A stretch of DNA of 33,952 nucleotides from Eubacterium sp. (lineage in GTDB: Bacteria; Bacillota; Clostridia; Lachnospirales; Lachnospiraceae): positions 1 through 33,952 of the forward strand of contig JAETSX010000039.1 in NCBI GenBank assembly GCA_021769425.1, written 5' to 3'. The position numbers were made by a program, and so were the translations under genes. The notes beneath the pieces were generated by a model. It ran no database searches, was not told the DNA's origin, and saw only the letters and a list, made by a program, of their open reading frames with translations. Each line of letters opens with the position of its first letter. Positions within the stretch are counted from its first letter, which is position 1. This document shows, in pieces, positions 25,477-33,867 of this stretch.

Positions 25477-25514
25477 AAAAAAAAAGAGGCTGTCCCAAGA
25501 AAGACAGCCTCTTT
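25477..25514 (-). terminator. Strong intrinsic terminator of the galactan operon
   Basis: A perfect 12-bp stem (25483-25494 with 25503-25514) with an 8-nt loop is followed on the minus strand by an unbroken run of T. It lies 180 bp after the GH53 stop codon. Confidence 0.85.
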
Positions 25515-25696: not shown

Positions 25697-26821
25697 TTAG
25701 AATTTTTTAATAACATCCAGTGCAGGCAGCGGTCTGCCCTGATAGTCAAACAACGCCTGGTTTGCCCACTCATTGCCGCAGGGCCCCGGATCTTTCATAT
25801 ATTTCAGAGAAGCTTCGGTGGCCCAGCCGCTTCCCGGCACCGGAATCCATGCCGGCTCCCAGTAGAAAAAGCCTCTGCCCAATCCTTTCGGGGTTTTGGC
25901 CACCCGCTTCATGAAATCCAGCATAAAATCCGACTGTCCCTGTTTTGTCATGGGATACTCAATTCTGGCCGCCAGTTCCGGTTTGGTGGCCATTCCCTTG
26001 CGCCTGGAAGGCTCCAGCTTCTCATAAGATGCGTAATCCTCCATAGTATACCCCATGGAAACCTCTGCCACCACCAGTTCTTTGCCGTAGCGGAGCGCCA
26101 GATCATGCATATTATACTCCAAATCTGCCAGAGAGCCGTGCCAGAACGGATAATAGGATAAGCCGATAAGCTCGAAATCTTCCCCGTCATTGGCAAAATA
26201 ATTGTCAAACCATTCCCGGTACAGTTCATTGTTCCCTCCGTTATCCAGATGAATCATAATCGGAATATCGGGATCGATATCCCGCACTCCATGGATTCCG
26301 GCATTTACTAATAATGCAATGGTCTCATAATCGGGCCGTTTTCCATCCGGCCATAGAAGCCCGTTGGACAGCTCATTGCCCACCTGTATCATATCCGGAA
26401 ATACCCCTTCCCGCTGGAATTCCCGCAAAACAGCCACCGTGAAGTCATACACCGCAGATTCCAGCCGTTTGCCGGTAAAATCCGCCCAGGCTTTTGGCTT
26501 GATCTGCTTGCCCGGATCTGCCCAGAAATCGCTGTAATGCAGGTTTAGCAGGATATCCATGCCCTGTTCCTGCACCCGTTTTGCCAGTTCCATGGCAGTG
26601 TCCAGATCATTGGTTCCGGCCCCGTAAGGCTCGCCTTCCGCAGAATAAGGATTATTCCAGAGACGGATGCGGACGGCATTGGTTCCATATTCCCGCAAAA
26701 CCGAAAGCAGATTTCTTTCATCCCCGTCTTTGTCATAAAAGACTGCTCCCAGCTTTTCCAGCTCCGGCAGGGAGGAAATATCCATTCCCTTAATAAATTT
26801 CCTGTTTGAAATACTTCCCAT
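25697..26821 (-). CDS. GH53 endo-beta-1,4-galactanase, cytosolic
   Basis: This 374-residue glycoside hydrolase of family 53 cuts beta-1,4-galactan, the side chain of pectic rhamnogalacturonan I. The barrel opens with FIKGMDISSLPELEKLG, and RIRLWNNPY and HYSDFWADPGKQ are family blocks. The acid/base is Glu150 in IQVGNE, the nucleophile Glu253 in VVAEVSMGYT. The end (GRGFFYWEPAWIP) is typical. There is no signal peptide, so it should act inside the cell on imported galacto-oligosaccharides; most characterised GH53 enzymes are secreted. The start at 26821 is set by an AGAGGGA site; the longer frame has no support. It is the last gene of the operon. Confidence 0.93.
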   Translation of the reverse strand: MGSISNRKFIKGMDISSLPELEKLGAVFYDKDGDERNLLSVLREYGTNAVRIRLWNNPYSAEGEPYGAGTNDLDTAMELAKRVQEQGMDILLNLHYSDFWADPGKQIKPKAWADFTGKRLESAVYDFTVAVLREFQREGVFPDMIQVGNELSNGLLWPDGKRPDYETIALLVNAGIHGVRDIDPDIPIMIHLDNGGNNELYREWFDNYFANDGEDFELIGLSYYPFWHGSLADLEYNMHDLALRYGKELVVAEVSMGYTMEDYASYEKLEPSRRKGMATKPELAARIEYPMTKQGQSDFMLDFMKRVAKTPKGLGRGFFYWEPAWIPVPGSGWATEASLKYMKDPGPCGNEWANQALFDYQGRPLPALDVIKKF

Positions 26822-26912: not shown

Positions 26913-27131
26913 TCAGTCGAAATCAAACTTGGTTATGCGCTCTGCCATAGCACGGTAGCGAAACCGCACCATTTCATTTTTCTCCAGCACGTCTTTTTCA
27001 TTACCGGTGTACTGGCAGCGGATGCAGTAATATTCATCCTTTTCTTTATCATAGAACATATCAATGTCCAAATCCCGCATAAAGCAAGAAGGGCATCTGT
27101 AATTTAATTTGCCTTTTCCAGCTTGAGCCAT
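26913..27131 (-). CDS. Small zinc-ribbon protein
   Basis: This 72-residue protein has two CxxC knuckles, C13-PS-C16 and C36-IR-C39, set in a short beta ribbon, followed by a charged helical tail. It should bind one zinc. The start overlaps the end of the 611-aa gene by 28 bp, but an AAGGAGG site at 27142-27148 with a 10-nt spacer strongly supports it. It may be a regulatory or nucleic-acid-binding protein or a partner of the large unknown protein before it; nothing in the sequence decides. No family is recognised. Confidence 0.75.
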   Translation of the reverse strand: MAQAGKGKLNYRCPSCFMRDLDIDMFYDKEKDEYYCIRCQYTGNEKDVLEKNEMVRFRYRAMAERITKFDFD

Positions 27132-28939
27132 GTTGCAAATACCTCCTTATCTGATATTGTTTTGGTGTAGCCTAAGGTGAACATGGGAGAGAATGCATAG
27201 CCTTCCTTCACATATCCAACTGCCTCTTTATTGGACGGGGCCATGGAAACCTTTGTCTCAATAGCAGGAATCACTGCGCTGACCGCATCGGCTCCGGCAA
27301 GCTGCTCTTCCCTGCATTTGTACTCATAGGAAATGGATTTCTCCTGCGCGCCTTCGCATTTCAATGTGATGCCCGTCATATCCTCAGGATATTCGGTAGT
27401 TCCGTAACATGCCACCATATATTCATTTAATTCTACTTTCGCTTCCGGATTGCTCATTTCCAGAATCGTGCGTTCCATCTTAATCTCAGAGCTTCCTTCT
27501 TCAAAATAAATCCTGGTCTGCAGCTTCACCGTCAGGTCATAGAATTCAATTTCCACGGGATCAAGAGTCAGAATCCTGGTTTTTCCCTCCTGTGAAAAAT
27601 GCGCTTTGGTACGGCACAGGCAGAGATCCACTTCTTCTCCCTGGTAGGAAAGCTTTGCGCTTCTTATGGTGCCCTCTCCCGCATAGTGGGTAAAATAGCC
27701 GGCACGGTATTTTTCCTGAATCAGAAACGGATAGGAAGCATCCTGCACATGCTTTGTTCCGATTCCCACCGGCCATTCCAGCTTGGCCGCATAGGGACGC
27801 AGATCCACAATGGCTCCGCCCTGATCCATATTCACACAGGCTCTCATATAGGGATCGCAGTACCAGAACAACTGCTTGTCCGACCCATAGAGGATATCAC
27901 GCCACAATGCGCATTCCGGTTCGGTATAGCTCTTTTTCTGCCGGTAGTAATCTGCAAACTCTGACATGGTCATATCAATGAGCTTGCCTTCTTTTTTCAG
28001 TTTGCCGTAATAAGCGCAGCCGTCGGAATAGGATTTTTCCAGCAGTTCATAGGGAGCCTCCCAGCGTCCCATTTTATTCATCCAGGCAGGCCCTACAAAC
28101 ATCATATTATAAGCATAGCCATTGTTGTATTTTTCCAGAGAACGGTACTGGTCAATCAGATTATACATATAGGGATATTCCCAGGTCTGGCTGTCATAAA
28201 TCATGCCCCGGAGCACATTCTGGGGATGGGTGCCGAAGTTGGAACCGTTTCCGTCGTAGCAGGCAATCAAATCTCTGGACAGATGGGGAATTGCCACAAT
28301 CCCGCTGTCCTCTGCCTCATTTGCCGCCGGCGCGTGAGTATTCTGTTTGGAAGGAATCCAGGGCGCCCAGGGGCCGCCATCAAATAAGGTATACCAGGAA
28401 TTGTTGCAGGTATGGTATGCCTTGGGGCCTTCCTCCCAGCAGGTTGCCACAGCGCATTTAACGGAAGGATAAGCTTCCTTGATATAATTGGTTAAATCTG
28501 CATCCAAATAATAAGATCCGGTGGATTCTGGATAAAATCCGAAAATATCATGGAATTTTGCAAAAATATCATCTACAATTGATTTTTTATCTTCCATGGA
28601 AAACATCCAGATGCAGAAATCCTTGGTTTTGTATTTCTCACGGAATTCCTTACAGGGCAGCCCCAGCAGGGAAAGAGCAATCTCATCTCCGTATTTCTCA
28701 TGATCTGCTTTGGCAAGGGCCACTGCTTCTTCATTAAATAAGCTTGCATATGTCATCTGAATAGTGGTTTTTAAGCCGTTTTCATGGGCCAGACGCTGCT
28801 GGGTTTTGAAAATGTCCAGCGACTCTGTCAGCAATGCTTTTCTTCCGATATCCTCCGTCTTGCCATGGCCGGTTACTTTTTCTGCATATTCCGGCACCAT
28901 TTCGGGACGGTGGATAATATTTACCACAAATTTGTCCAT
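27104..28939 (-). CDS. Large unrecognised protein in galactan operon, 611 aa
   Basis: I do not recognise the family. The start at 28939 has an AGGAGG site; there is no signal peptide or membrane segment, so it is cytosolic. Residues 1 to about 380 alternate helix and strand as in a (beta/alpha) barrel, with aromatic and acidic clusters typical of sugar-binding sites: CWEEGPKAYHTC (167-178), FDGGPWAPW (186-194) and IPHLSRDL (217-224). The part from about 400 on is beta-rich, as in the C-terminal domains of many glycoside hydrolases. It lies between a beta-galactosidase and a galactanase gene and overlaps the zinc-ribbon gene. A role as glycoside hydrolase or other galactoside-modifying enzyme is the natural inference, unproven. 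Conserved Asp/Glu pairs cannot be assigned without an alignment. Confidence 0.7.
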   Translation of the reverse strand: MDKFVVNIIHRPEMVPEYAEKVTGHGKTEDIGRKALLTESLDIFKTQQRLAHENGLKTTIQMTYASLFNEEAVALAKADHEKYGDEIALSLLGLPCKEFREKYKTKDFCIWMFSMEDKKSIVDDIFAKFHDIFGFYPESTGSYYLDADLTNYIKEAYPSVKCAVATCWEEGPKAYHTCNNSWYTLFDGGPWAPWIPSKQNTHAPAANEAEDSGIVAIPHLSRDLIACYDGNGSNFGTHPQNVLRGMIYDSQTWEYPYMYNLIDQYRSLEKYNNGYAYNMMFVGPAWMNKMGRWEAPYELLEKSYSDGCAYYGKLKKEGKLIDMTMSEFADYYRQKKSYTEPECALWRDILYGSDKQLFWYCDPYMRACVNMDQGGAIVDLRPYAAKLEWPVGIGTKHVQDASYPFLIQEKYRAGYFTHYAGEGTIRSAKLSYQGEEVDLCLCRTKAHFSQEGKTRILTLDPVEIEFYDLTVKLQTRIYFEEGSSEIKMERTILEMSNPEAKVELNEYMVACYGTTEYPEDMTGITLKCEGAQEKSISYEYKCREEQLAGADAVSAVIPAIETKVSMAPSNKEAVGYVKEGYAFSPMFTLGYTKTISDKEVFATWLKLEKAN

Positions 28940-28981
28940 TTGTTTTCCTCCTAATAATATGAAATGTTGGGGAAAGGGGCG

Positions 28982-29437
28982 AACCATTAGGGTTCTTCCC
29001 GGATTTCCTCATGTAGACCTTCAGGGTTCTATATTTTTAGGCTGGGGGATTCTGGGGAACCATTAGGGTTCTTCCCGGATTTCCTCATGTAGACCTTCAG
29101 GGTTCTATATTTTTAGGCTGGGGGATTCTGGGGAACCATCAGGACTCCTCCCAGCCTGGGGGTCTCTATATGCGCTCTGGTCTTTGACGGCTGGGTCCCT
29201 CCTCATGGTAAACCATCAGGGCTCCTCCCAGCCTCGTTTTCTCTATATGCGCTCTATTCTTTTGGAAGGCTGGGGATTCTGGGGAACCATCAGGACTCCT
29301 CCCAGCCTGGGGGTCTCTATATGCGCTCTAGTCTTTGACGGCTGGATCCCTCCTCATGGTAAACCATCAGGGCTCCTCCCAGCCTCGTTTTCTCTATATG
29401 CGCTCTGGTCTTTGTCGGCTGGGTCCCTCCTCATGGT
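28982..29437. repeat. About 76-bp tandem repeat array, six units
   Basis: Units begin at 28982, 29058, 29134, 29211, 29285 and 29362 (spacings 76, 76, 77, 74, 77 bp), each opening AACCAT. The first two are identical in core. The other four alternate between two types, so the array grew by duplication of a pair. It fills the whole 500-bp gap between the beta-galactosidase stop (29443) and the leader of the 611-aa gene. No gene is supported inside it. Confidence 0.92.
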
Positions 29438-29442
29438 AAAAA

Positions 29443-32400
29443 TCAATCCAACCCTTTGAAACTGAATGTAAACTTCATGGGGCTGCTCACATCTGCCAAA
29501 TACTCCGGATGCACTTTGGAGCCCCAGCTATCGTCTCCGCCCACACCCATCTGCCAGGAAGAGACGCGGACTACGGTATAATGAACCTGGGGCAGTTCAT
29601 AGGGATGCATTGCGGATTCCATTTCATGGGGGGTATAAGGCAACGCAGAGAAATTCATGTTATCTCCGGCAAAAAGTATGCCATTTCCTCTCTGATCTGT
29701 AATTTTAGCCCAACGCACATCCGTTTTATTGCCGCACTCCTGAGGCACTAAGTATTTTGCAAGATTATCGGTGACTTTATTCCGATATACTCCTAATTTT
29801 GCCCCATGTTTCCGATCAGCATAGGTCTCCGCCGGGCCGTTGCCATACCATTCCACATTTTCATAATCCGCGTTAAATTTAAACAGCACACCGAATTCCG
29901 GCATATCCCCCAGTTCTTTCACCGGATCATAGGAAAGCGTTACTGTGATGGCTCCGTCTCCGAATACTTCATAGGAAAGGCTGCATTTACTTACAGGAAC
30001 GGTCGCCATGGTATAATAATAAGTAATCACTGCACTGTGCTCTTTTTCTTCCAGAACCGGATTCTCTTTGGCTTCTTCATCCGGCCGCAGATACAGGCTG
30101 GCAAGCTTCCACTGCCCATACCGTCCCATCATATTGTTGCCCCAGTCATTGTCAATGGGCGCGCGCCAGAAATTGGGCATGGGAATCTGCTCGATCATTT
30201 CCTTTCCGCCATAACGGTAAGACACCAGTCCGCTCTTTAACTCGCTGAACATGCACTCAAAATTCTGTCCACGGACACCAATATTTAATTTACCTTTAAT
30301 TACTATAATTTCATCTGTAATCTTCGGACTTTCCGACGTTTTACTAAATGTACCCTGTCCCAATGCAGTTCCATGGGCCGTGAAGATTCCGCCTTCCGGA
30401 TTTCGGAATATTCCCTGGCCAAATGCAACTTCATAACCGATGGGAGCCCAATCCTCCGCTTCTTTTAACCGGAAAGAAACAGTAATTACATATTCTCCCG
30501 GCTGTTCTGGTATTTCCACCGGAAGATCGTAAGATTCCTCATGCAACGGCTCTACGCTGGTGAGAAGTTTTGTCTGTTTTAATACCTTTCCTTCCTTTTC
30601 CAGCACAACAATACATTCATATTGATCCGTATTGATAAATAAATTCTTATTTTTCACCAGTACTTTCTGTTCTGAAACCTCTGCGGTAATATTCTGATAA
30701 TTGAATTTCACCTCCTGCATCTTGGGAGATTCATCCCGTTCCCCGCCGTACACGATTCCATTTCCGCTGAAATTATAGTCACAGGGACGTTCCCCGAAAT
30801 CTCCGCCGTATGCCTGGAATTTCTTTCCATAACGATCTTTTTTCTCAATGGACTGGTCAATATAATCCCAGATAAACCCGCCCTGATATAAGGGCTCTGT
30901 ATCAGTCAAATCGGTATATTTATGCATTGCTCCGCAGGAGTTGCCCATGGCATGAGTATATTCACAGCAGATAAAAGGTTTGCTTCTGTCTTTAGCCAAA
31001 AAATCCTGAATACTCTTCACAGACGGATACATCTGGCTCTCCATGTCACTGGTATCGTTGAAACGCCTGTCATGGAATAACCCTTCATAATGCACCAGCC
31101 TGGTATCATCCAGTTTGCGGAATAACTGAGACATTTCATAAATGACGGATCCCCCAAAAGATTCATTTCCGCAGGACCAAATTACAATGGCCGGATGGTT
31201 CTTATCTCTCTGATAGCAGGAATTCACCCGATCCAGCATCATCGGCTGCCAGTCCATGCGATCCCCGGGAACAGCTGTTTCTATATCCGCTTTTCCTCTG
31301 ACAATGGGGTCCCAGGCGCCATGGCTTTCCAGATTATTTTCCGCAATCATATATAAGCCGTATTTATCGCAAAGCCTATAGATTCTGGAATCATCAGGAT
31401 AATGACAAGTTCGGACAGCATTGATATTATTCCGCTTCATAGTCATAATGTCCTGAACGATTTCTTCATCTGACACGGCACGTCCTGTTTTGGAACTGAA
31501 TTCATGCCGGTTAACCCCTTTGAATACGATCCGCTTCCCATTAATACACATGATATGGTCAATCATTTCAAACCGGCGGAATCCCACTGCCTGGGAAACT
31601 GCCTCCACCGCTTTGCCCTCTGCATTCTGCACTTCCAACAGCAATTCATAGAGATTGGGCTCTTCTGCGCTCCAAAGAGCCGGCCGCTCCACCGGAATCG
31701 TAACTGTAAGCTCTTCTGTCAAATCAGCGTCCTGTTTGGCCACAATGTTTTCTCCGTCTTTTAAAGTCAGAGCAACTTTTCCTTTCCCCATCCCCTTCAG
31801 ACAAATTTCCAGGTCTGCATTCTGATACTGATCATCTAACAAGGTCTTTATTCTGATATCCCAAATATGAACCTCAGGAACTGTATACAAAAAAACACTC
31901 CGGTAAATACCGGAAAAACGGAAGAAATCCTGGTCCTCGCACCAGCTTCCTGCGGTCCATTTAAATACCTGAACGGCCAGTTTATTCTCCCCTTCCACCA
32001 AAAAAGGCGTCAATTCAAACTCGGAGGGAGTGAAGCTGTCCTCACTGTAACCCACATAAATTCCGTTCAGCCACACCGCCATGCCGCTTTCCACACCCTG
32101 AAAAGAAATATAGACCGGCCGATTCTGCATCTGCTTGGGAACTGTAAAATATTTCACATAACTGGCAACCGGATTGAAAAAGGAAGGGATTTCTCCCGGC
32201 TCAATCTGTTCCCTCCCATCCCAGGGATACTGTACATTGGCATATTGGGGACTGTCATATCCCTCCATCTGGATATGGGCCGGAACTCTGATGTCCGCCC
32301 AGGATTTACAGTCATACTCTGCTGCTTCAAAACCCCGGATTGCAGACTCATAATTCCTGGCATAGGAGAACTTCCAAAGCCCATCCAATGAATGCCGGAA

Positions 32401-32523
32401 ACTGCTGTTTCCTTCTTTCAATTCCTCCATTGAACCATAACAGATATGATCCGAATGGGCCTCCAGGGTGTTCTCTTTAAAAATAAGGGGATTTTTTACT
32501 TTTTCAAAATCAAACTGCGGCAT
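29443..32523 (-). CDS. GH2 beta-galactosidase, LacZ-type
   Basis: This 1026-residue cytosolic enzyme removes terminal beta-galactose from lactose or galacto-oligosaccharides. It has the five-domain LacZ order: jelly-roll sugar-binding domain to about residue 215, Ig-like domain to about 320, the catalytic barrel (FKGVNRHEF at 334-342, Glu454 in CGNES as acid/base, Glu521 in CCEYTHAMGNS as nucleophile), a second Ig-like domain, and the C-terminal beta-sandwich with WYGNGPAETYADR. Length matches E. coli LacZ (1024). A GGAGGT site precedes the ATG. It sits behind two sugar-permease genes and before the unknown 611-aa gene, so import and hydrolysis are transcribed together. Confidence 0.95.
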   Translation of the reverse strand: MPQFDFEKVKNPLIFKENTLEAHSDHICYGSMEELKEGNSSFRHSLDGLWKFSYARNYESAIRGFEAAEYDCKSWADIRVPAHIQMEGYDSPQYANVQYPWDGREQIEPGEIPSFFNPVASYVKYFTVPKQMQNRPVYISFQGVESGMAVWLNGIYVGYSEDSFTPSEFELTPFLVEGENKLAVQVFKWTAGSWCEDQDFFRFSGIYRSVFLYTVPEVHIWDIRIKTLLDDQYQNADLEICLKGMGKGKVALTLKDGENIVAKQDADLTEELTVTIPVERPALWSAEEPNLYELLLEVQNAEGKAVEAVSQAVGFRRFEMIDHIMCINGKRIVFKGVNRHEFSSKTGRAVSDEEIVQDIMTMKRNNINAVRTCHYPDDSRIYRLCDKYGLYMIAENNLESHGAWDPIVRGKADIETAVPGDRMDWQPMMLDRVNSCYQRDKNHPAIVIWSCGNESFGGSVIYEMSQLFRKLDDTRLVHYEGLFHDRRFNDTSDMESQMYPSVKSIQDFLAKDRSKPFICCEYTHAMGNSCGAMHKYTDLTDTEPLYQGGFIWDYIDQSIEKKDRYGKKFQAYGGDFGERPCDYNFSGNGIVYGGERDESPKMQEVKFNYQNITAEVSEQKVLVKNKNLFINTDQYECIVVLEKEGKVLKQTKLLTSVEPLHEESYDLPVEIPEQPGEYVITVSFRLKEAEDWAPIGYEVAFGQGIFRNPEGGIFTAHGTALGQGTFSKTSESPKITDEIIVIKGKLNIGVRGQNFECMFSELKSGLVSYRYGGKEMIEQIPMPNFWRAPIDNDWGNNMMGRYGQWKLASLYLRPDEEAKENPVLEEKEHSAVITYYYTMATVPVSKCSLSYEVFGDGAITVTLSYDPVKELGDMPEFGVLFKFNADYENVEWYGNGPAETYADRKHGAKLGVYRNKVTDNLAKYLVPQECGNKTDVRWAKITDQRGNGILFAGDNMNFSALPYTPHEMESAMHPYELPQVHYTVVRVSSWQMGVGGDDSWGSKVHPEYLADVSSPMKFTFSFKGLD

Positions 32524-32672: not shown

Positions 32673-33485
32673 TTATTTCACTGCACCTGTAATACCTTCT
32701 GCAAAACTCTTCTGCAATACGAAGAATATGATAATCGTCGGCAGACTGCAGAGCAGAACGGCCAACATCAATACACCGTAATCCGTTACATAACCTTCTG
32801 TCAGGTTGGCAACCAGCATCGGCATAGTAATACTCACATCATCCAGCATAATTACTTTCGGCCACAGATAATTGTTCCATGCATTCATAAAAGTAATTGT
32901 CATAGCGGCTGCGTAAGTAGAACGCATAGTAGGAATAAACATCCTGAAGAATATCTCCAATTCGTTTAACCCGTCAATTCTAGCCGCCTCTATGATGTCA
33001 TGTGGAAAACTTCGGGCGCTCTGCCGGAACATCATGATAATCATGGGCGTGGAAATCGTCGGCAAAATAAATCCCAATGTGGAATTCAAAAGGCCTACTG
33101 CAGAAACCATACGGAACAAAGGAATCATCGTTGCCACAAAAGGAACCATCATTGCCAAAAGCAAAACAGAAAATACTGCGTCCTTTCCTTTGTCATAGTA
33201 AATTTCAAATCCGTAACCTGCAAGGGAACAAATCACCAGGGAACAGATCGTCAATAATATCGCATATTTAAACGAATTCAACATCGCCTGCTGCACCGGC
33301 GAATTGGCAAACAAGGCTTTCCAGTTCTCCATAAAAGCTGTTCCAGGCAGCAGTTTTCCTCTGGTTACATCCACACTCTTATTGGTGGCTGCTATCAGCA
33401 TCCAATAAAGAGGAAACACTGATATCAGTGATACAATGATCAAAACAACATACATTAACGCATTGGCTCTTTTTGTTTTAGTCAC
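32673..33485 (-). CDS. Sugar ABC transporter permease, MalG-type
   Basis: This inner-membrane permease has 270 residues and six predicted helices. It carries the EAA loop (EAARIDGLNELEIFFRMFIP) that contacts the ATPase. It belongs to the CUT1 group (MalG, GanQ, LacG), which imports di- and oligosaccharides. The start at the GTG 33485 is chosen because AGGTGA stands 5 bases before it; a GTG 9 bp upstream is possible. It overlaps the preceding permease gene by 8 bp. The context implies a galactoside substrate. The binding protein and ATPase are not in the window. Confidence 0.92.
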   Translation of the reverse strand: MTKTKRANALMYVVLIIVSLISVFPLYWMLIAATNKSVDVTRGKLLPGTAFMENWKALFANSPVQQAMLNSFKYAILLTICSLVICSLAGYGFEIYYDKGKDAVFSVLLLAMMVPFVATMIPLFRMVSAVGLLNSTLGFILPTISTPMIIMMFRQSARSFPHDIIEAARIDGLNELEIFFRMFIPTMRSTYAAAMTITFMNAWNNYLWPKVIMLDDVSITMPMLVANLTEGYVTDYGVLMLAVLLCSLPTIIIFFVLQKSFAEGITGAVK

Positions 33486-33867
33486 GCTTATCACCTACTT
33501 TCATCTGTATAAATGCCAGAATTGCCACCAGAATAAAGATCAGGAAGGACATGGCTGCTGCATAGCCAAAGTTCGGCACATACTTAAAGGATACATTATA
33601 TATGTAGTGGGACATTGTAATCGTAGCGTTGGAAGGTCCTCCTTTCGTCAGGTTGTAAGACTCATCAAACAACTGCAATGTTCCGTTTGTTGACATAATC
33701 GCTGTCAGAAGAATTGTAGGTTTCAACAGCGGAACCGTAATCTTGAAGAAAGTTTGCAGGGGGCTCGCCCCGTCAATCTTGGCTGCTTCATATACGGAAT
33801 ACTCTATATTCTGTAATCCGGAAAGATAAAATACCATGTTATACTGGCGAGCAAAAAGATTTGCCAA
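33478..33867 (-). CDS. Sugar ABC transporter permease, MalF-type, 5' end lost
   Basis: Only the C-terminal part (about 125 residues) of a CUT1 permease is present: the segment YNMVFYLSGLQNI, the EAA loop (YEAAKIDGASPLQTFFKITV), and the last helices ending in KVGDKRD. A full MalF-like subunit has about 290 or more residues. Upstream of about 33850 the frame meets a stop (TAA at 33883-33885), and the last 85 bp do not encode permease-like sequence. The partner would be the MalG-type permease next to it. The gene is either disrupted by another sequence or affected by an assembly edge; it is annotated from its TTG at 33867 only for convenience. Confidence 0.7.
   Translation of the reverse strand: MANLFARQYNMVFYLSGLQNIEYSVYEAAKIDGASPLQTFFKITVPLLKPTILLTAIMSTNGTLQLFDESYNLTKGGPSNATITMSHYIYNVSFKYVPNFGYAAAMSFLIFILVAILAFIQMKVGDKRD

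Follow-up and report, generated by a model that had tools for sequence, protein, structure and literature searches.

We propose that a gene on the minus strand of a 33,952-nucleotide (nt) contig of Eubacterium sp. (GenBank assembly GCA_021769425.1, contig JAETSX010000039.1; the whole stretch, at its full length, is called the window here) may encode a cytosolic carbohydrate-active enzyme of a family undescribed by Pfam, NCBIfam and PHROGs. Its 611-amino-acid (aa) product, which we call X611, would be distant kin of the DUF3863 protein in PDB entry 3LM3, would be paired with a small zinc-ribbon protein, and would probably hydrolyse imported galacto-oligosaccharides (GOS); taken as a whole, we judge this account about evenly poised between right and wrong. 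The original prediction, made from the letters of the window, had picked this gene as its best candidate for an undescribed carbohydrate-active enzyme, and that choice is supported by profile searches, fold comparisons and gene neighbourhoods, from which we infer catalysis.

27104..28939, minus strand: X611, 611-aa protein (open reading frame listing, Shine-Dalgarno sequence, models, conservation)
Parts of X611 in the model: N-terminal barrel, residues ~1-340; poorly modelled stretch, ~340-420; C-terminal beta-sandwich, ~424-607

The open reading frame (ORF) runs on the minus strand from an ATG at 28939 to a stop at 27104, exactly 611 codons, which confirms the frame originally claimed. A start 16 codons upstream in the same frame (28987) is possible; we prefer 28939 because AGGAGG stands immediately upstream of it and because Met is kept at this position in at least 90% of 76 X611 orthologues. 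All three residue clusters that had been pointed out are found in the translation (CWEEGPKAYHTC at residues 167-178, FDGGPWAPW at 186-194 and IPHLSRDL at 217-224). The cytosolic location claimed for the protein likewise agrees with a hydropathy heuristic for signal peptides (cut-off 2.0, exceeded by 22 of 26 solute-binding proteins): the N-terminus of X611 is not hydrophobic, with a value of 0.74, and even the highest value among X611-type ORFs, 1.95, falls below the cut-off.

Among 397 genomes of the window's family, Lachnospiraceae, 56 gave a match and 53, the window's own included, carry a clear orthologue, so that X611 is not a chance ORF; this count excludes three weaker matches (G030, G003, G051) and includes the partial copies G029, G347 and G365. 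Outside the window's own genome the orthologues are 72-95% identical to the window copy, mostly above 80%. A sample of the phylum held X611 in one genome of 299, namely the window's own, and in a sample of the class the ortholog profile A1 matched 17 of 291 genomes: six with X611 (own included), five with a sister clade 32-38% identical to it, which we call clade B, and six with distant relatives only. In a 51-row tree with 25 orthologues drawn at random, branches with SH-aLRT 99, 81 and 100 set the orthologues of X611, clade B and the distant clade apart from one another, though other branches are long enough to leave deep placements unsure; the X and distant clades are nonetheless homologous by profile (hhalign probability 99.6). 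No relative was found on viral contigs, and plasmids yielded one distant match only, a protein whose own relatives occur only within the same record.

For the neighbourhoods we took the best 80 of at least 544 matching stretches in species genomes, a choice that favours close relatives. Across these 80 loci the median identity of X611 to the window copy is ~86% (85.9), against 63.2% for the neighbouring endo-beta-1,4-galactanase of glycoside hydrolase (GH) family 53 and 62.3% for the GH2 beta-galactosidase; in all 61 pairs compared with GH53 and all 30 compared with GH2, it is X611 that has the higher identity to its window copy, a gap that is inflated because the loci were selected by X611 similarity. 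Set A3 omits five of the 80 loci (L042, L045, L046, L063, L117); the X611 copy of L063 is intact. Two copies, 88 and 86% identical to that of Lachnospiraceae, lie in bins labelled Alistipes and Muribaculaceae (L059 and L077), which points either to mis-binning or to recent transfer; in G205 (C3:173432-175281) X611 is split across two frames, through either a broken gene or a sequencing error.

The strictest partner of X611, not singled out in the original prediction, is the zinc-ribbon gene that follows it.

26913..27131, minus strand: zinc-ribbon protein, 72 aa, with a CPxC and a CxxC pair; its gene shares 28 nt with the 3' end of X611
27142..27148, minus strand: AAGGAGG, ribosome-binding site of the zinc-ribbon gene, within the X611 coding sequence, with a 10-nt spacer (sequence and conservation)

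This gene stands directly behind X611 in 79 of the 80 loci (the contig of the remaining one, L100, ends 7 nt after the match) and in each of 22 additional loci from the X clade and from clade B, those without GH53 included; in the 13 loci of the distant clade it is absent. Its ATG lies within the X611 coding sequence, so that the two frames share 28 nt in 82 of 85 cases and 19, 31 and 211 nt in the others, the last perhaps an artefact of mechanical Met choice, and most bases of the preceding AAGGAGG are kept in at least 80% of 102 rows. The four Cys of the CPxC and CxxC pairs are invariant in 85 of 85 sequences, and a wider 10-row alignment reaching down to 23% identity keeps them throughout; in library searches the ORF gives zinc-ribbon matches below threshold only. 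The fixed overlap and the internal ribosome site together suggest translational coupling and a complex of fixed ratio, in which the zinc-ribbon protein may be a subunit of X611.

The sugar genes around X611 point to its likely substrates. Neighbours were counted over all frames, small ones included, both here and in L031 and L141-L150; GH53 is present in 65 of the 80 loci, and in 58 of the 80 it shares the strand of X611 and is no more than 1.5 kb away. Within the 46 loci that have at least 8 kb on each side, we find GH53 in 40, an ATP-binding cassette (ABC) importer in 34, GH2 or GH42 in 32, LacI in 29, AraC in 11 and GalK/GalT in 8. Same-clade loci from other families agree, with GH53 in four of five (L141-L144; the fifth, L125, is a 3.4-kb contig). 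Thus the galactoside context originally claimed for the gene extends to most same-clade homologues, which mostly sit beside such genes.

The association also holds genome-wide within the window's family, where GH53 occurs in 45 of 53 X611 carriers and in 40 of 344 non-carriers (odds ratio 43, Fisher p 2e-27, kinship not corrected for). Furthermore, among the matches listed (150, covering 81 of the 85 GH53-positive genomes), a GH53 copy of at most 411 aa is found in 34 of 44 carriers against 4 of 37 non-carriers. Within X611 loci a hydrophobic N-terminus is seen in none of 66 short GH53 copies and in all four long ones, and the neighbouring GH53 frame is longer in L142 (488 aa) and L143 (509 aa). 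Eight carriers lack GH53, and their neighbours were read from frames of 80 codons or more, with the longest kept wherever frames overlapped. Importer genes lie beside X611 in seven of them (none was seen in the partial copy L166), GH2 or GH42 occurs in five loci (L163, L165, L167, L036, L166), and a melibiase-like gene comes next in L164. These distributions bear on the idea that X611 is a housekeeping protein caught in galactan operons by chance, which its very high conservation (a median of 86% over the 80 loci) would favour; its patchy presence (53 of 397) tracks GH53, and it is placed repeatedly with sugar importers, so we reject a housekeeping role as highly improbable.

Two further genes recur beside X611. 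A 2200-aa gene comes next after it in the GH53-less loci L037 (9466-16068) and L162 (10244-16885); the L162 protein carries FIVAR, Big_2 and F5/8C (surface-type) domains, and at E 1e-5 none that is recognised as catalytic. In several importer operons with X611 (L163:13831-14382; a cluster of nine loci), a protein of ~184 aa is encoded before the solute-binding protein gene, and that of L163 has no Pfam match at 1e-5 and no NCBIfam match.

Around clade B and the distant relatives other genes are found. Sugar genes there include a PL8 lyase (L147), a GH36-like gene (L150), GH38 (L151), a bacterial rhamnosidase-type gene (L153) and, below threshold, a GH106-like gene (L033). In L145 and L152 the neighbours are instead an exchanger, AMP-binding enzymes or ATPases, those of L145 having no evident part in sugar use, and because these two adjoin non-sugar genes, functions across clade B and the distant relatives may vary. 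Since clade B keeps the zinc ribbon among other genes, the zinc ribbon seems tied to the type of enzyme and GH53 to the substrate.

It is conceivable, though rather unlikely, that X611 and the zinc ribbon together carry out another reaction (as an epimerase, lyase or transglycosylase) or sense oligosaccharides, and do not hydrolyse them. Clade B and distant loci with PL8, GH36-like, GH38 or rhamnosidase-like neighbours (which L145 and L152 lack) would fit such a role, as would the resemblance of the C-terminal half of X611 to galactose mutarotases and the presence of a small zinc ribbon, which is unusual next to a glycosidase. Against this, conserved acids after the barrel strands fit catalysis, and so does the conservation of X611 above that of GH53 and GH2 in every pair compared.

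Turning to structure, AlphaFold models built from a shallow alignment reached a mean pLDDT of 63 for the full protein and 56 for residues 1-425. In Foldseek, residues 1-425 match 3LM3 first (E 3.0e-5, TM 0.49), with deacetylase and GH57 entries next, the polysaccharide deacetylases 3qbu, 1z7a, 3rxz and PuuE among the matches of this N-domain. The whole model matches the GH57 enzyme 1k1x first (E 2.9e-9), followed by sandwich proteins (YidC, galactose mutarotases) and NodB-type deacetylases. With low to medium confidence, X611 would therefore be modelled as a barrel of the glycoside hydrolase/deacetylase type followed by a mutarotase-like sandwich, as in GH57 and GH38; the barrel-like N-terminal and beta-rich C-terminal parts described in the original prediction are thus borne out at the confidence of the models.

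The same fold lists raise the question of whether X611 has the NodB/CE4 fold and works as an esterase or deacetylase, clearing galactan or pectin fragments of their acetyl groups after import. Its N-terminal half matches the four deacetylases named above by fold, and the title of entry 3LM3 reads 'putative glycoside hydrolase/deacetylase'. The metal motifs of CE4/NodB enzymes are TFDD and H[ST]xxH: the latter occurs in none of 12 members (plain HxxxH is found in L147 and L148), and a TFDD-like motif in one of the 12 (L031), not in the window protein. Moreover, the top match of the whole model is a GH57 enzyme, and a mutarotase-like C-terminal domain is typical of GH38 and GH57, not of CE4, so that we think a deacetylase quite unlikely; a classical CE4 enzyme is rejected, as the NodB metal motifs are absent.

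Candidate catalytic residues can be named within the barrel. In the 76 close orthologues H10, E86, D146, E169, E170, H219, D223, H238, D263 and E327 never vary, and E86, E169, E170, D223 and D263 are also invariant in 15 more divergent X and B sequences. Over a wider set of 20 rows, D223 is kept in all 20, D146 and E86 in 19 each, and E169 is Glu or Asp throughout; E170 becomes Gln in the distant clade. The model places D146 after strand 4, E169 after strand 5 and D223 after strand 6, with no invariant acid directly after strand 7 in the poorly modelled pocket. In GH57, the catalytic Glu lies at strand 4 and the Asp at strand 7. On the model, the most likely chemistry would be acid/base hydrolysis by D223 with E169 or D146.

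Profile searches agree with the absence of any glycoside hydrolase signature remarked on at the outset. X611 matches none of the 24736 Pfam models (to 2025) at E up to 1, and has no match in NCBIfam (June 2026) or PHROGs; as a single sequence it matches nothing in the PDB, where the ortholog profile A1 gives an E of 0.43, at chance level. The profile A6, built from the 20-row wider family, finds 3LM3 with an E of 3.6e-8 (hmmsearch), which A1 alone does not, and the X profile on its own aligns to 3LM3 with an hhalign probability of 82, where none of 300 other ORFs exceeds 3.6. The uncharacterised DUF3863/3LM3 is thus the sole family link, with no match to a known family of unrelated function. 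DUF3863 itself (PF12979) scores 12.8 bits against the distant relative L033, below the cut-off of 27, and DUF3864 (PF12980) has no match in X611; a search for DUF3863 in 150 genomes of the window's family returned none, a weak negative since the controls had no match either.

Signatures of the known fold relatives are also lacking. PF03065, the GH57 model, has no match over its cut-off in X611 and matches one of 12 relatives at E 0.084, the HQP motif is present in none of 12 members, and the GH38 models PF01074 and PF07748 do not match X611. We reject GH57 membership because X611 stays under the Pfam cut-off, the HQP motif is lacking and two GH57 sequences showed no profile similarity; these results make it less likely that X611 is a GH57 and leave its being built like one unaffected. 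Alternatively, X611 may belong to an existing CAZy family that is missing from Pfam and NCBIfam, for example a recent beta-galactosidase family such as GH165. Beta-galactosidases are reported in GH147, GH154, GH165 and GH173 in the portion of the source available (PMC11739564). Nevertheless, neither Pfam, with models to 2025, nor the June 2026 NCBIfam holds a match, and membership of such a family strikes us as improbable. In the openly accessible literature nothing was found under DUF3863, DUF3864, PF12979 or BDI_3119, and for 3LM3 only unrelated papers in the portions accessible; no description of X611 was found in the accessible portions of PMC5320581, PMC11739564, PMC11127362, PMC6344614, PMC7832830 and PMC3774763.

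Several observations weigh against X611 being a galacto-oligosaccharide hydrolase of the build proposed here. The putative substrate is read from gene association; GH53 is absent from six of the 46 long-flank loci, two of which (L064, L115) lack GH2 and GH42 as well, and it is missing from all seven loci of clade B, though the zinc ribbon is present there. On the structural side, pLDDT is below 50 over much of residues 166-295, which hold the pocket, and of 340-420; Foldseek TM-scores are low (0.22 for 1k1x, with a root-mean-square deviation of 21, and 0.49 for 3LM3); TIM-barrel methylenetetrahydrofolate reductases appear from rank 8 in the N-domain list; and 3LM3 is not among the best 50 matches of the whole model. 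Two of the candidate residues also vary, D146 being Ser in L150 and E327 Ala in L037, and the two GH57 sequences were not aligned by profile above 300 background ORFs. Finally, among 10 strains that included Roseburia inulinivorans A2-194, R. faecis was alone in growing on type 1 arabinogalactan according to the portion of the source available (PMC5320581). The A2-194 genome (ACFY01) is the source of locus L083, with X611 and GH53. This also counts against the bolder idea of X611 as an exo-acting beta-galactosidase in its own right; GOS or short galactans are possible substrates.

If X611 is indeed a hydrolase of imported galacto-oligosaccharides, the pathway might run as follows. An ABC importer would bring in beta-1,4-galacto-oligosaccharides (fragments of galactan, arabinogalactan I or GOS), which a cytosolic GH53 would shorten; X611, with its zinc-ribbon subunit in fixed ratio, would then hydrolyse a linkage that is a poor target for GH53 and GH2/GH42, perhaps the one that holds the terminal beta-galactosyl unit, the sugar at the reducing end or a substituent; and GH2/GH42 and GalK/GalT would complete the breakdown, with galactose entering the Leloir pathway. 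Gut bacteria ferment galactan and galacto-oligosaccharides, which are widespread as dietary fibres and prebiotics. X611, more conserved than the known enzymes adjoining it, associated with a GH53 of cytosolic type and accompanied by a near-obligate zinc ribbon, probably carries out a step missing from present pathway models. Because X611 ties together 3LM3, a DUF and unlabelled clades, one biochemical result could help in annotating many genes (at least 544 matching stretches).

The remaining features of the window are listed below.

25483..25514, minus strand: terminator-like hairpin and T run after GH53 (consensus match)
25697..26821, minus strand: GH53 endo-beta-1,4-galactanase, short form without signal peptide (PF07745, E 3.3e-114)
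28940..29442, minus strand: gap of 503 nt between GH2 and X611, with two repeat pairs
29443..32523, minus strand: GH2 beta-galactosidase, LacZ/Bga2A type (NF052611, 1443 bits, cut-off 999; Pfam)
32673..33494, minus strand: ABC sugar permease (PF00528)
33478..33867, minus strand: ABC sugar permease close to the end of the contig (PF00528, match beginning at profile position 66)

All the neighbours originally named (two permeases, GH2, the zinc-ribbon protein and GH53) are present, the zinc ribbon with matches below threshold. The GH53 frame is open up to 26926; its likely start is the ATG at 26821, and its N-terminus is not hydrophobic. The permease at 33478..33867 probably lacks its 5' part, as the contig ends just beyond. 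That these genes form a single operon is in keeping with their common minus strand, the hairpin after GH53 and the absence of a minus-strand terminator from the GH2-X611 gap in a terminator scan, but that gap calls for caution: it measures 503 nt against 17-249 nt in 10 relatives, a length it reaches because of the repeat pairs inside it. These repeats (28969-29413) comprise two of 142 nt (97%) and two of 76 nt (93%), and the segment 29121-29413, searched against the genome, gave 15 further matches, of which most are short and one falls within this very gap.

3LM3 is among the closest known systems. It is an uncharacterised DUF3863/DUF3864 protein (PF12979 and PF12980) of Parabacteroides distasonis, with which X611 shares profile similarity across much of the barrel and its best N-domain fold match; unlike 3LM3, X611 falls below the Pfam model, has a larger C-terminal sandwich and lacks DUF3864, and its zinc-ribbon partner was not found in the Parabacteroides locus. 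On a P. distasonis plasmid (L040, 11812-14935) the gene of a distant X611 relative comes immediately before that of a DUF3863 protein, so that two members of the superfamily are adjacent, in a locus of the SusC/SusD type with GH2 genes. GH57 enzymes (4-alpha-glucanotransferase 1k1x, amylopullulanases) combine a barrel with a sandwich, carry the HQP motif in conserved region 1 and act on alpha-linkages; they supply the top match of the whole X611 model and several N-domain matches, whereas X611 lacks their Pfam match, the HQP motif and profile similarity to two GH57 sequences. GH38 alpha-mannosidases belong to the same fold class, with C-terminal sandwiches, and one distant relative (L151) has a GH38 gene in its locus; X611 itself has no GH38 Pfam match. 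To NodB/CE4 deacetylases X611 is similar in its N-domain fold and dissimilar in its absent metal motifs and extra C-terminal sandwich. The GH2/GH42 and GH53 enzymes share operons and, presumably, substrates with X611, which matches none of their Pfam models.

Usual beta-galactosidases are built on a TIM barrel, whereas the X611 enzyme proposed here would use a barrel of the GH57/GH38/deacetylase type. We offer it only as a tentative and somewhat doubtful possibility that X611 founds a new GH family, an exo-beta-1,4-galactosidase or galactanase on such a barrel with a zinc-ribbon subunit in fixed ratio, and that the DUF3863-like superfamily consists of unrecognised glycosidases for various glycans. 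X611 would be new at the level of family and not as a kind: a conserved two-protein unit, in a fold class with known glycosidases, that appears tied to beta-galactoside use.

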